Source: a virus. From it: a DNA stretch of 22,770 nt. Positions 1,774 to 20,983 of this stretch are shown here, piece by piece. The position numbers were made by a program, and so were the translations under genes. Below the pieces are notes generated by a model. That model saw only the letters and a list, made by a program, of their open reading frames with translations, did not search any database and was not told the DNA's origin. Each line of letters opens with the position of its first letter. Positions within the stretch are counted from its first letter, which is position 1. The DNA lies in IMG/VR virus record IMGVR_UViG_3300044613_002876, positions 1-22,770 of that record; one strand, 5' to 3'.

Positions 1774-1781
<8 letters not shown>
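1380..1781 (+). CDS. nrdI: NrdI, flavodoxin-like activator of class Ib ribonucleotide reductase
   Basis: 133 residues, normal for NrdI. The FMN phosphate-binding loop is [10 protein letters not shown] at residues 8-17, and a second flavin-contact loop is PTYGGGS at about 50-56. In this family NrdI supplies the oxidant that assembles the dimanganese-tyrosyl radical cofactor in NrdF. The gene is preceded by AGGAG (1366-1370) and overlaps nrdE by 8 nt (ATGGATAA), so translation is probably coupled. No nrdH glutaredoxin is present in the window. Confidence 0.93.
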
Positions 1782-4849
<3,068 letters not shown>

Positions 4850-6376: not shown

Positions 6377-6448
6377 TCCCCCTTAGCTCAATGGCAGAGC
6401 AGAGAGCTGTTAACTCTAAGGTTCGTGGTTCGAATCCACGAGGGGGAG
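6377..6448 (+). tRNA. tRNA-Asn (anticodon GTT)
   Basis: 72 nt cloverleaf. The acceptor TCCCCCT pairs with AGGGGGA, the D arm is GCTC/GAGC, and the T arm is CGTGG-TTCGAAT-CCACG. The anticodon GTT is at 6409-6411. The anticodon stem has one G-A mismatch at its outer pair. CCA is not encoded. Confidence 0.93.
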
Positions 6449-6502
6449 CTAATGGTGTGGCCCATACCACTCTCACGGGTATGAGATAAAAATGGGCATT
6501 AG
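6449..6502 (+). other. Structured spacer between tRNA-Asn and tRNA-Asp
   Basis: Several nested inverted repeats fill the spacer. CTAATG (6449-6454) pairs with CATTAG (6497-6502). GCCCAT (6460-6465) pairs with ATGGGC (6492-6497). CATACC (6463-6468) pairs with GGTATG (6478-6483); it competes for the CAT at 6463-6465 with the second helix. There is no ORF and it does not fold as a tRNA. It could guide tRNA processing or be a remnant of another element. Confidence 0.45.
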
Positions 6503-6575
6503 GCTCCATAGCTCAGTTGGTTAGAGCACTACCCTGTCACGGTAGGGGTCGCCAGTTCAAGTCTGGTTGGAGTCG
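6502..6575 (+). tRNA. tRNA-Asp (anticodon GTC)
   Basis: 74 nt. The acceptor GGCTCCA pairs with TGGAGTC (one G-T pair). The anticodon stem CTACC/GGTAG encloses GTC at 6536-6538. The T arm has the usual TTCAAGT loop and the discriminator is G. CCA is not encoded. The next gene starts 28 nt downstream after a clear AGGAAGG site. Confidence 0.93.
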
Positions 6576-6816: not shown

Positions 6817-8970
6817 ATGGCAGATATTAATGAGTGTCCAGTTGACCACGGTCAGCATGGATCAAAAACAAAAGCTTCAAGTTCAAGAGGCACAACAAAT
6901 AAAGACTGGTGGCCTAATCAAATTTCATTAGAGCCACTGCTTCACAATAATCCTAAGAGCAATCCTATGGATGATGACTTTAACTATGTTGAAGAGTTTA
7001 AGACACTAGACTTGGCAGATGTAAAGAAGGATATTGTTCAAGTCATGAGGACATCGCAAGAGTGGTGGCCTGCAGACTACGGACACTATGGCCCACTGTT
7101 CATTAGAATGGCTTGGCACTCTGCTGGAACATATCGTGTTTCAGATGGCCGTGGAGGTGGCGGACAGGGACTACATCGCTTTGCCCCACTAAACTCCTGG
7201 CCAGACAACATTAACCTAGATAAGGCCCGTAGACTTTTGTGGCCAGTCAAGCAGAAGTACGGTCGCAAACTCAGCTGGGCTGATCTAATGATTCTAGCAG
7301 GGAACGTTGCTCTTGAAGACATGGGCTTCCCTACCTTTGGATTTGCAGGAGGTCGTGAAGATGTCTGGGAGCCAGACAACACCTATTGGGGTGACGAGAC
7401 TGAGTGGCTAGCAAGCAAGCGGTATGACGAGTCAAGAGAAGCAAGCACACTAGAGGATCCTCTTGCTGCAGTGCAGATGGGGCTGATTTATGTAAATCCA
7501 GAAGGACCAGATGGCAATCCAGACTTTAAGCTGGCTGCTGCAGATATTCGTGAGACATTCGGACGAATGGCTATGAATGATGAAGAAACTGTAGCTCTTA
7601 TTGCTGGAGGACACGCATTTGGAAAGACTCATGGAGCGGGACCTGCCTCGCAGGTTGGACCAGAGCCAGAAGCTGTTGACGATCTTGCTGCAGTTGGATT
7701 AGGCTGGAAAAACTCCCAGGGCAAGGGACACTCAGAAGACACCATCTCTTCTGGTCTAGAGGTTACCTGGACGCCAAATCCTACTCAGTGGGATAACGAC
7801 TATCTAAGGCTAATCTATAAGTATGATTGGGTACCAGAAGAATCTCCAGCAGGAGCTAAGCAGTGGGTTCCATCTAACTTTGAGGCACAAGATGCAGCTC
7901 CTCATGCACACCTTGAAGATGTAAAGGTTGTTCCAAGAATGCTTACTACTGACCTTGCGCTAAGGTTTGGTGACGAGGAGTATGACAAGATTTGTAGAAA
8001 GTTCTTGGAAGACTTTGAGTACTTTACAGATGCATTTGCACGTGCATGGTTTAAGCTAACCCACAGAGATATGGGACCAAGATCCAGGTACCACGGCTCA
8101 GAGGTCCCAGCAGAAGTTCTTCTGTGGCAAGATCCTGTGCAGAGTGCACCAGTCCCAGACGAGACCGCCATTGAAAAAGCAAAAAAGCTTATCGATGGCC
8201 TAGACGTTAGCAATGTGGACTTAATTAGGCTTGCCTATGCCTCCGCCTCTACTTACAGAAACACTGACAAGAGGGGCGGTGCAAATGGTGCAAGGATTGC
8301 ATTCTTGCCTCAACGATCATGGCCAGTAAACTCTTCTGTTCTTGCAACTCTAGATGCGGTTCAAGAGGTTCGTAATGAAATGGGAAACCAGATGTCATTG
8401 GCAGACCTGATTGTTTTAGCTGGAACATATGCACTAGAAAAGGCCTCTGATACTCGTGTTGTATTTACTGGTGGTCGTGGAGACGCCACGCAGGAGCTGA
8501 CAGATATAGAGTCATTCAACTATCTATATCCAGTTGCAGATGCATTCGTTAACTGGTCTCATAAAGAGTTTGCTGATTCATTAGACAAGTCATTAATTGA
8601 AAAGGCAACCTTGCTAGGTCTTACTCCTCCAGAGATGACAGCTCTTTATGGAGGACTACGATCTTTGGGAATCCCGTCTAACGGTAGGGGCGTCCTAACA
8701 GACAATCCAGGAACTCTGTCTAACGACTTCTTTATTAATGTCCTAGATATGAATACTGAGTGGAAGGCATCTGAGGATAGCCTATACAACGGCTTCGACC
8801 GTAAGACAAGGGACCTTAAGTGGACCGCTACAAGATCAGATATGGTATTTGCTTCAAACTCTGTACTAAGGGCTTACTGCGAAGTATACGCCTCAAGCGA
8901 TGGACTAGAAAAGCTAAAGAAAGACTTTTCTAAAGTTTGGACAAAGCTGATGAATTCCGACTTGTTCTAA
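6817..8970 (+). CDS. katG: Catalase-peroxidase KatG
   Basis: 717 residues, full length with both the catalytic N-terminal and the degenerate C-terminal peroxidase domain. It converts hydrogen peroxide to water and oxygen and has peroxidase activity, using heme b in the cytoplasm. Distal heme residues are Arg97, Trp100 and His101 ([11 protein letters not shown]) and the proximal ligand is His266 ([10 protein letters not shown]). The covalent Met-Tyr-Trp adduct needed for catalase activity is complete: Trp100, Tyr225 (LIYVNPEG) and Met251 (RMAMND), with the same spacings as the mycobacterial enzyme. There is no signal peptide. The gene, with DUF2061, sits between two tRNA pairs. KatG is very unusual in a phage, and the protein looks functional, not decayed. 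Base use resembles the neighbouring genes. Confidence 0.97.
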
Positions 8971-9006: not shown

Positions 9007-9078
<72 letters not shown>

Positions 9079-9081
9079 CAG

Positions 9082-9157
9082 GGTCCGTTGGAGTAGTGGT
9101 TATCTCGTCTGCCTTTCACGCAGAAGAACACGGGTTCAAGTCCCGTACGGACTGCCA
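9082..9157 (+). tRNA. tRNA-Glu (anticodon TTC)
   Basis: 76 nt including an encoded CCA end (9155-9157), the only one of the four tRNAs with CCA. The acceptor GGTCCGT pairs with ACGGACT (one G-T pair). The anticodon stem TCTGC/GCAGA encloses TTC at 9115-9117. It lies 3 nt after tRNA-Thr, so the two are surely co-transcribed. Confidence 0.93.
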
Positions 9158-16501: not shown

Positions 16502-16720
16502 ATGTTAGTAAAGTCTCTTGAAAAGATGGAATCAATCGTTCGAGGCAACAAGAGGTTGTCCTGGGATGGATGGGATGTAATTCTAAGAATTCCAGACTAC
16601 TCTGCTTGGAAGAAGCGTGATGGAGTTTTAGTATCTGGAAAGTGGTATGTTCAAAAAAGATACCCAGTTTCTGAAAAGGGATGGTCTGTACCAGAGGGAT
16701 TCCTAAACAAAAATGGATAG
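16502..16720 (+). CDS. Conserved phage hypothetical protein (DGWDV type)
   Basis: 72 residues from ATG 16502, which follows AGGAAAG; an in-frame ATG at 16466 would add 12 residues. The core SLEKMESIVRGNKRLSWDGW and SGKWYVQKRYPVSEKGW is a pattern often met in actinophage genomes; no function is known. Rich in Trp and basic residues, perhaps nucleic-acid binding. A TATAAT lies at 16441-16446. It overlaps whiB by 8 nt (ATGGATAG). Confidence 0.72.
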   Translation: MLVKSLEKMESIVRGNKRLSWDGWDVILRIPDYSAWKKRDGVLVSGKWYVQKRYPVSEKGWSVPEGFLNKNG

Positions 16721-17003
16721 TGGCAAGTGGAAAGATGATTCCTCTTGTCGTGATTATGATACTAATTTATTTTTTGATACATACGAAGAAGACGAACTCT
16801 TACGTCCAGCTATAGACCAGCTTTGTTCTGGGTGCCCAGTAGCAAGGCAGTGTTTTGCTGTGGGCATCTCACAGAAAGAGTGGGGTGTTTGGGGTGGTGT
16901 ATACCTAGAAGCTGGAAAAATATCAAAAGAATTTAATCGTCATAGAAATAAGAAGGACTGGGCAAAAACCTGGGAAGTTCTTACAATGGATAAGGGGAAG
17001 TAA
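16713..17003 (+). CDS. WhiB-family iron-sulfur transcription regulator
   Basis: 96 residues. The four cluster ligands are Cys12, Cys38, Cys41 and Cys47 (C...C-x2-C-x5-C) and the GVWGG turn is at 58-62, followed by a basic segment (EFNRHRNKKDWAK) for DNA contact. WhiB proteins occur only in actinobacteria and their phages; they bind a 4Fe-4S cluster, often partner the main sigma factor and respond to redox or nitric oxide. A phage copy could redirect host transcription or block a host WhiB. Coupled by an 8-nt overlap to the gene before it. Confidence 0.92.
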   Translation: MDSGKWKDDSSCRDYDTNLFFDTYEEDELLRPAIDQLCSGCPVARQCFAVGISQKEWGVWGGVYLEAGKISKEFNRHRNKKDWAKTWEVLTMDKGK

Positions 17004-18401: not shown

Positions 18402-19043
18402 ATGGCAAAAACACAGTACCCCATAGATGGCAAAAAGGGCAAAGCTTGGAAAATCACAAGCCCCTTCGGATGGAGGATACATCCCATCGAAAAAACGAAA
18501 AAACATCATAACGGCGATGACATCTGGGGATCAAATCCTAAGATATACTGCGAAGCGTGGCACGACGGAACAGTTGTGTATGCTGGAACCTCAAAGTTAA
18601 AAAACTCAGATGGCTCTCTTGGCGGTGTCGGATACTACGTTGATCTTCGTTCTAAGATTGACGGCAAGTGGTATGTAACAAGATATGGCCACATGGCAGA
18701 GGGTTCTTTAAAGGTTAAGACTGGTCAAAAGGTTGAAGCTGGAACAATTCTTGGAATCATGGGGAACACTGGTGCCTCAGCTGGAAGACATTTGCACTTT
18801 GAAATTGTTGAGGGAAGAGTTCATAGGTGGGACCTAAATGGCAAAGGATTTGTTAGTCCAATTGCTTTCGTAGAGGCTGTAATGGCCTTTGAAAAGCTTA
18901 AGGCATCTGCAGCTGAGATAACTCCAGACGATGGTGCTCCAAGTGAGGCTGCTCCAAGTCTAGATGTTGATCATCTAACAGCAAAGAAAAAGCCAGGGAA
19001 GAAGAAGAAACTTGTAAACCCTGTTCCAGGCTTTAAGAAATAA
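18402..19043 (+). CDS. Second M23 endopeptidase, without LysM
   Basis: 213 residues. Clearly a paralogue of the endolysin at 13640-14464: both begin with G-K-G/D-W-K-T-S, GWRIHP and KTKKHHNG-D. Zinc ligands His36 and Asp40 (HHNGDD), His97 (RYGHMAE) and His132 (HLHFE) are kept. The C-terminus is different: a linker of Ala/Pro/Glu and a very basic end (KKKPGKKKK... GFKK) in place of LysM. It may be a virion-associated wall-cutting enzyme for entry, given the structural genes downstream, or a second lysin. AAGGAG precedes the ATG. Confidence 0.9.
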   Translation: MAKTQYPIDGKKGKAWKITSPFGWRIHPIEKTKKHHNGDDIWGSNPKIYCEAWHDGTVVYAGTSKLKNSDGSLGGVGYYVDLRSKIDGKWYVTRYGHMAEGSLKVKTGQKVEAGTILGIMGNTGASAGRHLHFEIVEGRVHRWDLNGKGFVSPIAFVEAVMAFEKLKASAAEITPDDGAPSEAAPSLDVDHLTAKKKPGKKKKLVNPVPGFKK

Positions 19044-19046
19044 TAC

Positions 19047-19052
19047 TATAAT
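19047..19052 (+). promoter_or_regulatory. -10 element of the candidate small RNA
   Basis: Consensus TATAAT beginning 4 nt after the peptidase stop. With the 6-7 nt spacing used elsewhere, transcription would begin at about 19059, immediately before the long stem. No clear -35. Confidence 0.5.
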
Positions 19053-19058
19053 ATAAAC

Positions 19059-19146
19059 GTCCCCTATACAGGACAAGGACGCAAACTTAGGATGAGTAGT
19101 TACCATTTTACAAAGCGGCCAGATGTAGGTTCTGTATAGGGGTTTT
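19059..19146 (+). ncRNA. Candidate structured small RNA, ends paired
   Basis: CCCCTATACAGGAC (19061-19074) pairs with GTTCTGTATAGGGG (19129-19142): 14 consecutive pairs, one of them G-U, directly followed by TTTT. Inside, GGACGC is followed far downstream by GCGGCC (19115-19120), five pairs with one mismatch, and GTAG/TTAC can close an inner loop. With TATAAT just upstream and T residues just downstream, the whole 125-nt gap between two genes looks like a self-contained transcription unit for an RNA of about 88 nt. It is too long-range for a simple terminator. No known RNA family is recognised; it contains no hammerhead core. A leader or attenuator for 19170 is an alternative, although that gene has its own -10. 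Confidence 0.6.
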
Positions 19147-19169: not shown

Positions 19170-19454
19170 ATGACTATACACGCAACCATTAGCCTGTCCA
19201 GTGGGACAGCCACAAGACTCACACCTAACGGAATTCATTCTGGAATGGACATTACTATTCAGAATGTTGACTCTGCTGCCTATGTTTACATCGGTGGTGA
19301 AGATACTTTAAATTCTGAAAATTTCGGATACCGACTGAATCCTGGCTCAGCTATTTCTTTTGAGCTGCCAGGAACAGATGCGTTATATGCAACTACTGAC
19401 GCAGAACAATCGTATGTTGCAGTGCTAAAGACTAACTTAGAGAGTGGCAACTAA
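19170..19454 (+). CDS. Small beta-rich phage structural-type protein
   Basis: 94 residues. An all-beta sequence (IHATISLSSGTATRLTPNGI; SAAYVYIGGEDTLN; GSAISFELPGTDALYATT) of the sort found just upstream of tail-fibre genes in actinophages, probably a minor virion protein or fibre-associated decoration protein. No SD sequence; leaderless start predicted. Its stop overlaps the next ATG by one base (TAATG), so the fibre gene is translationally coupled to it. Confidence 0.65.
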   Translation: MTIHATISLSSGTATRLTPNGIHSGMDITIQNVDSAAYVYIGGEDTLNSENFGYRLNPGSAISFELPGTDALYATTDAEQSYVAVLKTNLESGN

Positions 19455-20983
19455 TGGCTAGATTTTCTGGCGGGGCAGGCGGAGGCTCTGGAATTCCAGG
19501 ACCAACTGGTCCAGCTGGTGATTCCGCATACGAAATTGCAGTAGCCAATGGTTTTGTTGGTACAGAGCAAGAGTGGTTAGATTCTCTTGGTGGTGGCGGA
19601 ACTGCAAACATTGCAGACTTTATTTTTACAGATAATGACTGGAATAGCTCAATAACTCTTCCAGGCGATAAGAGTATGAAAATTGAAGCAGGAGCAGATA
19701 GCGATCTATACCTAACTGCTGGAGATGACCTTTACATTCAAACTCTTGGAGCAGGAGATGATATTCATCTTGAGGCAGCAGACGATATTAGATTCTCAGC
19801 AGGACACGAAAATGCTGAGTCTGAAACAGCTTATTACTGGAGAATGGATTCAGAAGGAAAGTTCCAACTTCCTGGTGCAGGGTATATTGAAAATCCACTA
19901 AATAGTTCTGGTGACGGATCTGGAAATGACACACTTAAACTTGTTCCAGATGACGATTTAATTTGGAATGGTGGAGATCAGTATATAATTATTGACCCAA
20001 CTGGACCAAACCACATTCACATTCGTGCAGGTGGAGTACAAGATTATTCAAATGCAGACTTAATCCTTGGCGGAGAGCGTGCAGGAGTTCGTGTTTCTGA
20101 CACAGACGGAACCACTGTTGTTCAGTCAAAGCAAGAAGATTACGTTTGGACATACCAGAATATTGGCCAGGGAGATCAGATCTATGTAGTAGCGACTGCA
20201 ATGGCTGAGCCAGACATTAATGACTTTACAATCATCAATGGTCAGAAGCATATAATTACTAGCGTAATTAGAGATGAACCAAATGGAACTACTTCTTATG
20301 AAACTACCCCAAGTATTGGTTTTATACAAAATGCCAACTATACATTCACTAGAGATAACGGAACTCATTTCTGGAACTTCAACAAAACAGGTTACCTAAA
20401 TGGACCTACAGAAACAGGTTATCTACGTGTCACAGGTATTATAAATGATGACGGTAATTTAGAAGTTCAGGCAGATCAAAATCTTGTTATTAGTGGTGGA
20501 GAAAGTAACGGAGAGTACTTACATGACTCATCTAATCCAAACAACCAAATTGCAACTATTGGAGATATCTCTAATTCAGCACCAGTAGAAGTGTCATTTA
20601 CAGTTAATGGCGGTACTGCTGGAACACAGCCAACCTTTAACGGAGCCCCACTTTTCACTGGAAATTATGTTAAGACTGGCCCACTAGTTCACTTTGAGAT
20701 TCAGGTAGATATGGATAATATTACTAACTTTGGAACTGGACAATACTACGTTGACTTGCCATTTAATGCTAAGTACGCTTACCAGCTTAATGATGGGTGC
20801 CTGCACGATATATCTGCAAACAATCAGTATTCGGTAGGTGGCCATGTCCAGGCAGGAACAAACAGGCTATTCCTAAATTACACTGGATCAAATGGTCAAG
20901 ACGAGCTCTTCACCCACAGCACACCAGTCACCCTTAACGTAGCAGACAACTTCCACATTTCTGGTACATATATAGCCGAATAG
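19454..20983 (+). CDS. Tail fibre or minor tail protein with collagen-like start
   Basis: 509 residues. A short Gly-rich start leads to GIPGPTGPAGDSAYEIAVAN with FVGTEQEWLDSL, a widespread phage-fibre motif of a collagen-like repeat followed by a small helical element. Residues ~50-320 are repetitive beta-strand (DLYLTAGDDLYIQTLGAGDD; NLVISGGESNGEY), as in trimeric fibre shafts. The last ~120 residues (PVEVSFTVNGGTAGTQPTFN onward) look like a compact beta-sandwich, the likely receptor-binding tip. It would recognise the host surface. Confidence 0.78.
   Translation: MARFSGGAGGGSGIPGPTGPAGDSAYEIAVANGFVGTEQEWLDSLGGGGTANIADFIFTDNDWNSSITLPGDKSMKIEAGADSDLYLTAGDDLYIQTLGAGDDIHLEAADDIRFSAGHENAESETAYYWRMDSEGKFQLPGAGYIENPLNSSGDGSGNDTLKLVPDDDLIWNGGDQYIIIDPTGPNHIHIRAGGVQDYSNADLILGGERAGVRVSDTDGTTVVQSKQEDYVWTYQNIGQGDQIYVVATAMAEPDINDFTIINGQKHIITSVIRDEPNGTTSYETTPSIGFIQNANYTFTRDNGTHFWNFNKTGYLNGPTETGYLRVTGIINDDGNLEVQADQNLVISGGESNGEYLHDSSNPNNQIATIGDISNSAPVEVSFTVNGGTAGTQPTFNGAPLFTGNYVKTGPLVHFEIQVDMDNITNFGTGQYYVDLPFNAKYAYQLNDGCLHDISANNQYSVGGHVQAGTNRLFLNYTGSNGQDELFTHSTPVTLNVADNFHISGTYIAE

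Follow-up and report, generated by a model that had tools for sequence, protein, structure and literature searches.

Bacterial trans-acting antisense small RNAs are, like the phage RNA considered here, short, provided with their own promoter and terminator, and discontinuous in their target pairing. The phage RNA differs from them in its predicted target, two fixed positions within helices 69-71 of an rRNA instead of an mRNA, and in a conservation that persists when the order of its parts is circularly permuted and that follows the host phylum. Guide RNAs of the box C/D and H/ACA classes are likewise small, address conserved rRNA sites and leave nucleotides unpaired at a fixed place. Unlike them, the phage RNA belongs to bacterial phages, has no known enzyme partner and showed neither guide boxes nor pocket architecture: inspection of sequences and folds by eye, together with Rfam, gave no box C (RUGAUGA), box D (CUGA), ACA tail or pocket hairpins. 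Phage T4 RNA C and RNA D are comparable as stable phage RNAs encoded in a tRNA cluster, and we know of no function for either; rnaC and rnaD contain neither the conserved block described below (motif A) nor an evident variant of it, and no common sequence block was found. Antisense PNAs directed against helix 69, the same 23S helix, inhibit growth of E. coli and, as far as the citing account describes them, are synthetic oligomers with a single site (Kulik et al. 2017, cited in PMC7038079). A natural rRNA antisense exists in chloroplasts, where an RNA complementary to 5S rRNA destabilizes that rRNA when overexpressed; it is organellar and nonviral, concerns a different rRNA and lacks a two-site design (PMC3017836). 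Searches of the open-access literature turned up no account of any phage RNA with complementarity to 23S rRNA. To our knowledge, no phage RNA is aimed at rRNA, and we rate the target and the design as new and the mode of action, antisense pairing, as familiar.

The stretch of DNA analyzed (the window) is virus record IMGVR_UViG_3300044613_002876, 22,770 nt in length, whose relevant features are collected in Table 1. An actinobacterial host is indicated by the presence of a WhiB-like gene, WhiB being an actinobacterial marker; among 14 control genomes, the family was found only in that of Corynebacterium glutamicum. Read by eye, the window also contains two big open reading frames (ORFs) resembling the pair of ribonucleotide reductase subunits (1774-4849) and, odd for a phage genome, a 717-amino-acid ORF resembling catalase-peroxidase (KatG; 6817-8970). 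A total of four tRNA genes (6377-6575 and 9007-9154) flank the KatG-like gene.

Table 1. Features of the RNA gene and its surroundings in the window
Feature	Position	Strand	Basis or remark
WhiB-like protein, host marker (Actinomycetota)	16713..17003	+	PF02467
M23 peptidase, upstream neighbor (context only)	18402..19043	+	PF01551
RNA gene promoter, -10 element (TATAAT)	19047..19052	+	TATAAT-like box in 75/75 main-type relatives
P1 closing stem, 5' arm	19061..19074	+	fold, covariation
Segment GACAAGGA	19072..19079	+	complementary to 23S UCCUUGUC (~1941-1948) by comparison with the Streptomyces sequence L260; weak, partly within P1
Motif A, CUUAGGAUG-AG-UAGUUACC	19086..19104	+	antisense to 23S helix 69 plus 3' flank; strongest pairing position across the entire Streptomyces 23S
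Motif B, GCCA-GA-UGUAGGU	19118..19130	+	antisense to 23S 1961-1974; lesion C1967-A1970; 3' end overlaps P1
P1 closing stem, 3' arm, also the terminator stem	19129..19142	+	fold, covariation
T tract (TTTT), terminator tail, after GGGG of the stem	19143..19146	+	T tract in 57/75 relatives
Small protein of unknown function, downstream neighbor (context only)	19170..19454	+	weak match to phrog_30212, unknown function

Positions 19059-19146 are, on the sequence evidence, a small RNA gene without an Rfam family. A preliminary description had proposed such a gene here, of no recognized family, with a 14-bp closing stem and its own promoter and terminator, and all of these elements held up. The stem (P1) pairs exactly as described, with 13 Watson-Crick pairs and one G-U enclosing a 54-nt loop, and the minimum free energy of the element was -31.3 kcal/mol, whereas shuffles averaged -18.7 (z = -4.36; 0 of 200 shuffles as stable). 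Compensatory changes in the stem, which that description had named as a check, were present among the roughly 90 relatives listed: the subgroup that includes the window showed two-sided changes at 5 of 12 pairs, another subgroup at 7 of 11, and the covariation score was reached by 0 of 500 shuffles. Among the 75 main-type elements listed, the 24 nt preceding the stem contain an exact TATAAT in 55 (control, 1.3%) and a five-of-six match in the other 20 (control, 8.5%); at least 5 T occur in the 8 nt after the stem in 57 (control, 21%). The GC-rich stem followed by a T tract is that of an intrinsic terminator, with a loop far above the usual length, and the element has, at the sequence level, both the promoter and the terminator of a trans-acting antisense RNA. 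Rfam 15, at gathering and relaxed thresholds, returned only tRNAs in the window and 10 relatives, the best subthreshold match reaching 13.3 bits against a cut-off of 51.1. The one structural detail that fell away was an inner pairing (GGACGC/GCGGCC) with a small inner hairpin, which is unconserved in relatives; conservation is much stronger in the loop than in the stem, and the loop interior is mostly open, conserved sequence.

Relatives were first gathered through the proteins neighboring the element. Downstream of the M23 gene, the element was absent in most of them and several had a short-loop terminator only; two loci (L037 and L052) had a long-loop element there with the common block CUUAGGAUG[G]AUUAGUUACC. 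Motif A was thus spotted first as a conserved block of the relatives, and its complementarity to 23S helix 69 was recognized afterwards. A pattern search of viral contigs with this block, allowing a gap of 2-3, gave at least 120 stretches, and among the matches listed about 90 distinct elements have a common closing stem of 10-14 bp; the small RNA gene is present in at least 100 uncultured-phage sequences. The same pattern in some 85,000 prokaryote genomes gave only 6 unconvincing matches that lack the context and look like chance, and the cultured phage genomes in the collection searched contained no member, the sole match, in Arthrobacter phage PinkFriday, being a ribosome-binding-site look-alike. 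Searching viral contigs with a stem arm alone returned chance matches, except for the same virus. The invariance of motif A is partly imposed, because most relatives were gathered via its pattern; the stem, blocks B and C, the second family described below and L031 are tests free of that search. Covariance models found six members, the window's included, among the loci collected without block A, and L031, likewise retrieved without motif A, has one change within it that still leaves a G-U pair with 23S.

In the main subtype, block A is followed by block B, and in a tRNA-cluster subtype B precedes A and P1 closes straight after A; a GC-rich subtype also has B then A, and another lies directly after a tRNA-Ile gene. 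The A-B and B-A orders are related by circular permutation, with stems closing both. In L034, L035, L039 and L047, the terminator stem that follows the M23 match is of the same kind but lacks the long loop, which suggests that the antisense loop has been gained or lost inside an existing terminator. At nine loci downstream of the M23 match (L028, L029, L032, L034, L035, L039, L040, L047 and L049), a conserved leader, ACGCUGAAAAGCGGUAAYRACGCACAUUCCAAAUAAUUAUGGAAAAC, precedes the next gene and is a possible cis-regulatory RNA.

Reverse-complemented, the invariant loop block, CUUAGGAUG-(lesion)-UAGUUACC, corresponds to helix 69 of 23S rRNA and its 3' flank (1910-1929) in the actinobacterial form (23S positions here follow standard E. 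coli numbering, consistent with PMC1190176). The window's motif A gave a duplex of -24.2 kcal/mol with the Streptomyces 23S and -19.6 with that of E. coli, and by our own estimate 17 matched bases with a small gap would arise somewhere in rRNA by chance at about 1e-6. Two other readings of the block were rejected. A minimal ORF (AUGGAUUAG, M-D-stop) exists in some copies, and two-base gaps, the window's included, break its frame; a decoy, at the DNA level, of a homing-endonuclease site in rDNA is excluded by a site center that is always altered. Elsewhere in the window, a tail-fiber-like gene contains CATTCGTGCAGGT (20020-20032), a 13-nt exact antisense to 23S at about chance level.

A second 23S site emerged when motif A and P1 were removed. 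In a 6-mer profile of 26 dissimilar relatives so treated, the top 23S antisense site was 1957-1974, with a score of 25 (mean, 1.9; standard deviation, 2.3; z ~10); the next separate peak scored 13 and the sense strand 11 or less. With 34 relatives of all subtypes and P1 not excluded, this peak persisted at 48 (mean, 5.7; standard deviation, 4.2), the H71 stretch (1944-1958) was almost empty, and a weaker peak at 1932-1943 reached 33, near the sense-strand maximum of 32, so that a third segment is only suggestive. Local alignment with A masked placed the best match inside 1925-1985 in 20 of 94 elements versus 3 of 470 shuffles; sliding duplex energies over the whole 23S were discarded as too noisy because stem remnants dominate them, and the 6-mer profile gave a clearer signal than the alignment. 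The profile and the alignment thus indicate that the loops carry two independent predicted antisense segments to neighboring 23S sites flanking H71, the complementarity at conserved bases exceeding chance. In the window itself, motif B is short (4 + 7 bp, one of them G-U) and shares pairs with P1, so that it could bind only if P1 opened at its innermost, weakest part.

Both duplexes are interrupted at a fixed internal place, so that neither forms a long uninterrupted helix. The motif A duplex is broken at U1917-C1920 in every RNA among those listed, by deletion (gap of 2-3) or by insertion or substitution (gap of 4-7), and block B is broken near C1967-G1968 in most subtypes inspected; one guess is that the lesions avoid RNase III. 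The sole perfect copy of motif A (L283) is part of a real 23S rRNA gene, and this contig of the viral collection is therefore probably misassigned to viruses.

The actinobacterial 23S sequences (L260, Streptomyces; L261, Arthrobacter) read GGUAACUA-UAA-CCAUCCUAAG at the motif A site, whereas those of E. coli and Azospirillum read CCGUAACUA-UAA-CGGUCCUAAG. Rewriting the block for non-actinobacterial 23S (CUUAGGACC..UAGUUACGG) led to a second RNA family with the block CUUAGGACCG...UAGUUACGG, found in L246, L247, L248 and L253 and then in L281 and L282; matches to CUUAGGACC in L244, L245, L249, L252, L254 and L256 were set aside as coding or chance. The A duplex of the second family gave -33.3 kcal/mol with the E. 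coli 23S versus -19.1 with that of Streptomyces, and the actinobacterial motif A has the opposite preference. RNA and target covary between hosts, GAUGG facing CCAUC in the actinobacterial form and GACCG facing CGGUC in the others, with the host assigned by WhiB only. WhiB was present in 12 of 21 records with CUUAGGAUG, the window included and mostly long, versus 0 of 4 records with CUUAGGACCG, 2 of which are short; the contigs are nonindependent samples, and individual hosts rest on this marker. By eye, four sequences of the second family form three hairpins with invariant loops, including block A and GGAGUCGUGCCC, and their stems differ in a compensatory manner, e.g., ACACC/GGUGU versus ACUCAC/GUGAGU; their single-sequence folds were no better than shuffles. 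In the middle hairpin of L246, L247, L248, L253 and L281 the loop is invariably GGCUGCU; its complement, AGCAGCC, occurs at about positions 265 and 1072 of the E. coli 23S, a 7-mer match that is possibly chance.

We consider it likely that a widespread class of phage RNAs grips helices 69-71 of 23S rRNA by two-site interrupted antisense pairing, circularly permuted and matched to the host phylum. Under the mechanism we favor, a phage small RNA of about 85 nt would begin just after the TATAAT box, end at the P1 terminator and be held shut by P1, which would display the loop as a trans-acting antisense RNA against domain IV of the host 23S rRNA. The helix 69 loop with its 3' flank (1910-1929) would be the partner of motif A, and 1961-1974 that of motif B; the intervening H71 hairpin would stay untouched. 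Bound in this way to the intersubunit face of 50S subunits, whether nascent or free, the RNA would most likely block late 50S maturation or 30S joining (bridge B2a), by which the phage would gain control of host ribosomes. From the observed anatomy, conservation, covariation, two-site complementarity and phylum-matched rewriting, we infer expression and actual pairing in the cell. That 23S rRNA is the real partner seems to us very likely, and the mechanism taken whole is probable, if by no wide measure; inhibition of assembly or subunit joining is its tentative part, which may well prove otherwise. One point against binding is that mature ribosomes contain helix 69 in folded form, in which it may be inaccessible. 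Phages need working ribosomes, so that simple inhibition would have to be time-limited or aimed at new subunits. Published work on the target site is consistent with such an effect: besides the growth inhibition by PNAs against helix 69 (PMC7038079), mutations in that helix impair translation or 70S formation (PMC1190176), subunit association is lost upon mutation of helix/loop 70, and the actinobacterial toxins MazF-mt3 and MazF-mt6 cleave 23S in helix/loop 70, the latter in the 50S subunit and not in the 70S ribosome (PMC5408214).

That last observation also lends support to another idea, that on free 50S subunits the RNA shields helices 69-71 from host toxins or defense nucleases cleaving in this region, sparing translation during infection. 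MazF-type enzymes cut UUCCU in helix/loop 70, both binding sites flank that stretch, and some relatives also have GAAUUUCGCU or AGGAAUUUCG, complementary to 1932-1943. UUCCU is, however, poorly covered by the window and many relatives, the best conserved sites lying on either side of it, and the presence of such toxins in these hosts is unsupported; we regard this protective role as unlikely. Slightly less favored is a role in helix 69 modification, with the RNA positioning an enzyme or shielding a nucleotide and the lesions marking the target nucleotides. The constancy of the lesion sites, U1917-C1920 and about C1967-G1968 whatever the lesion sequence, would fit, as would the heavy modification of helix 69 and, as far as the source describes it, the action of TlyA on 23S rRNA and its link to ribosome assembly (PMC12805891). 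Against it stand the variable sequence and size of the lesions among relatives and the absence, on inspection, of guide-box features and of a partner protein, and we judge it rather improbable.

The preliminary description, whose interpretation is partly supported, had suggested a regulatory, sponge or packaging-type RNA, and a small structured RNA adjoining virion genes in the window would suit a sponge for a host small RNA or protein, or a packaging RNA. A packaging role is nevertheless unsupported, because relatives sit in tRNA clusters and beside varied genes, and complementarity to 23S accounts for the conserved sequence, indicating the ribosome rather than packaging or a simple sponge; we give either role very little credence. 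Least probable of all, in our estimation, is that we are dealing with nothing more than a long-looped intrinsic terminator whose match to rRNA is coincidental. The four loci that have a plain short-loop terminator in the corresponding position after the M23 gene speak for it, but the loop is conserved far above the stem, all main-type relatives listed have their own promoter, and two adjacent 23S sites are matched, the second alone at z ~10.

Phages take over host transcription and tRNA pools, and the site on the intersubunit face is one that some antibiotics and synthetic PNAs target. If real, the RNA preferred here, antisense to 23S domain IV, would be a natural antisense agent that inhibits or modulates this face of the ribosome and would offer a direct route to testing phage control of host ribosomes. 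The match between RNA and host phylum could, moreover, make motif A useful for predicting which host group an uncultured phage infects.
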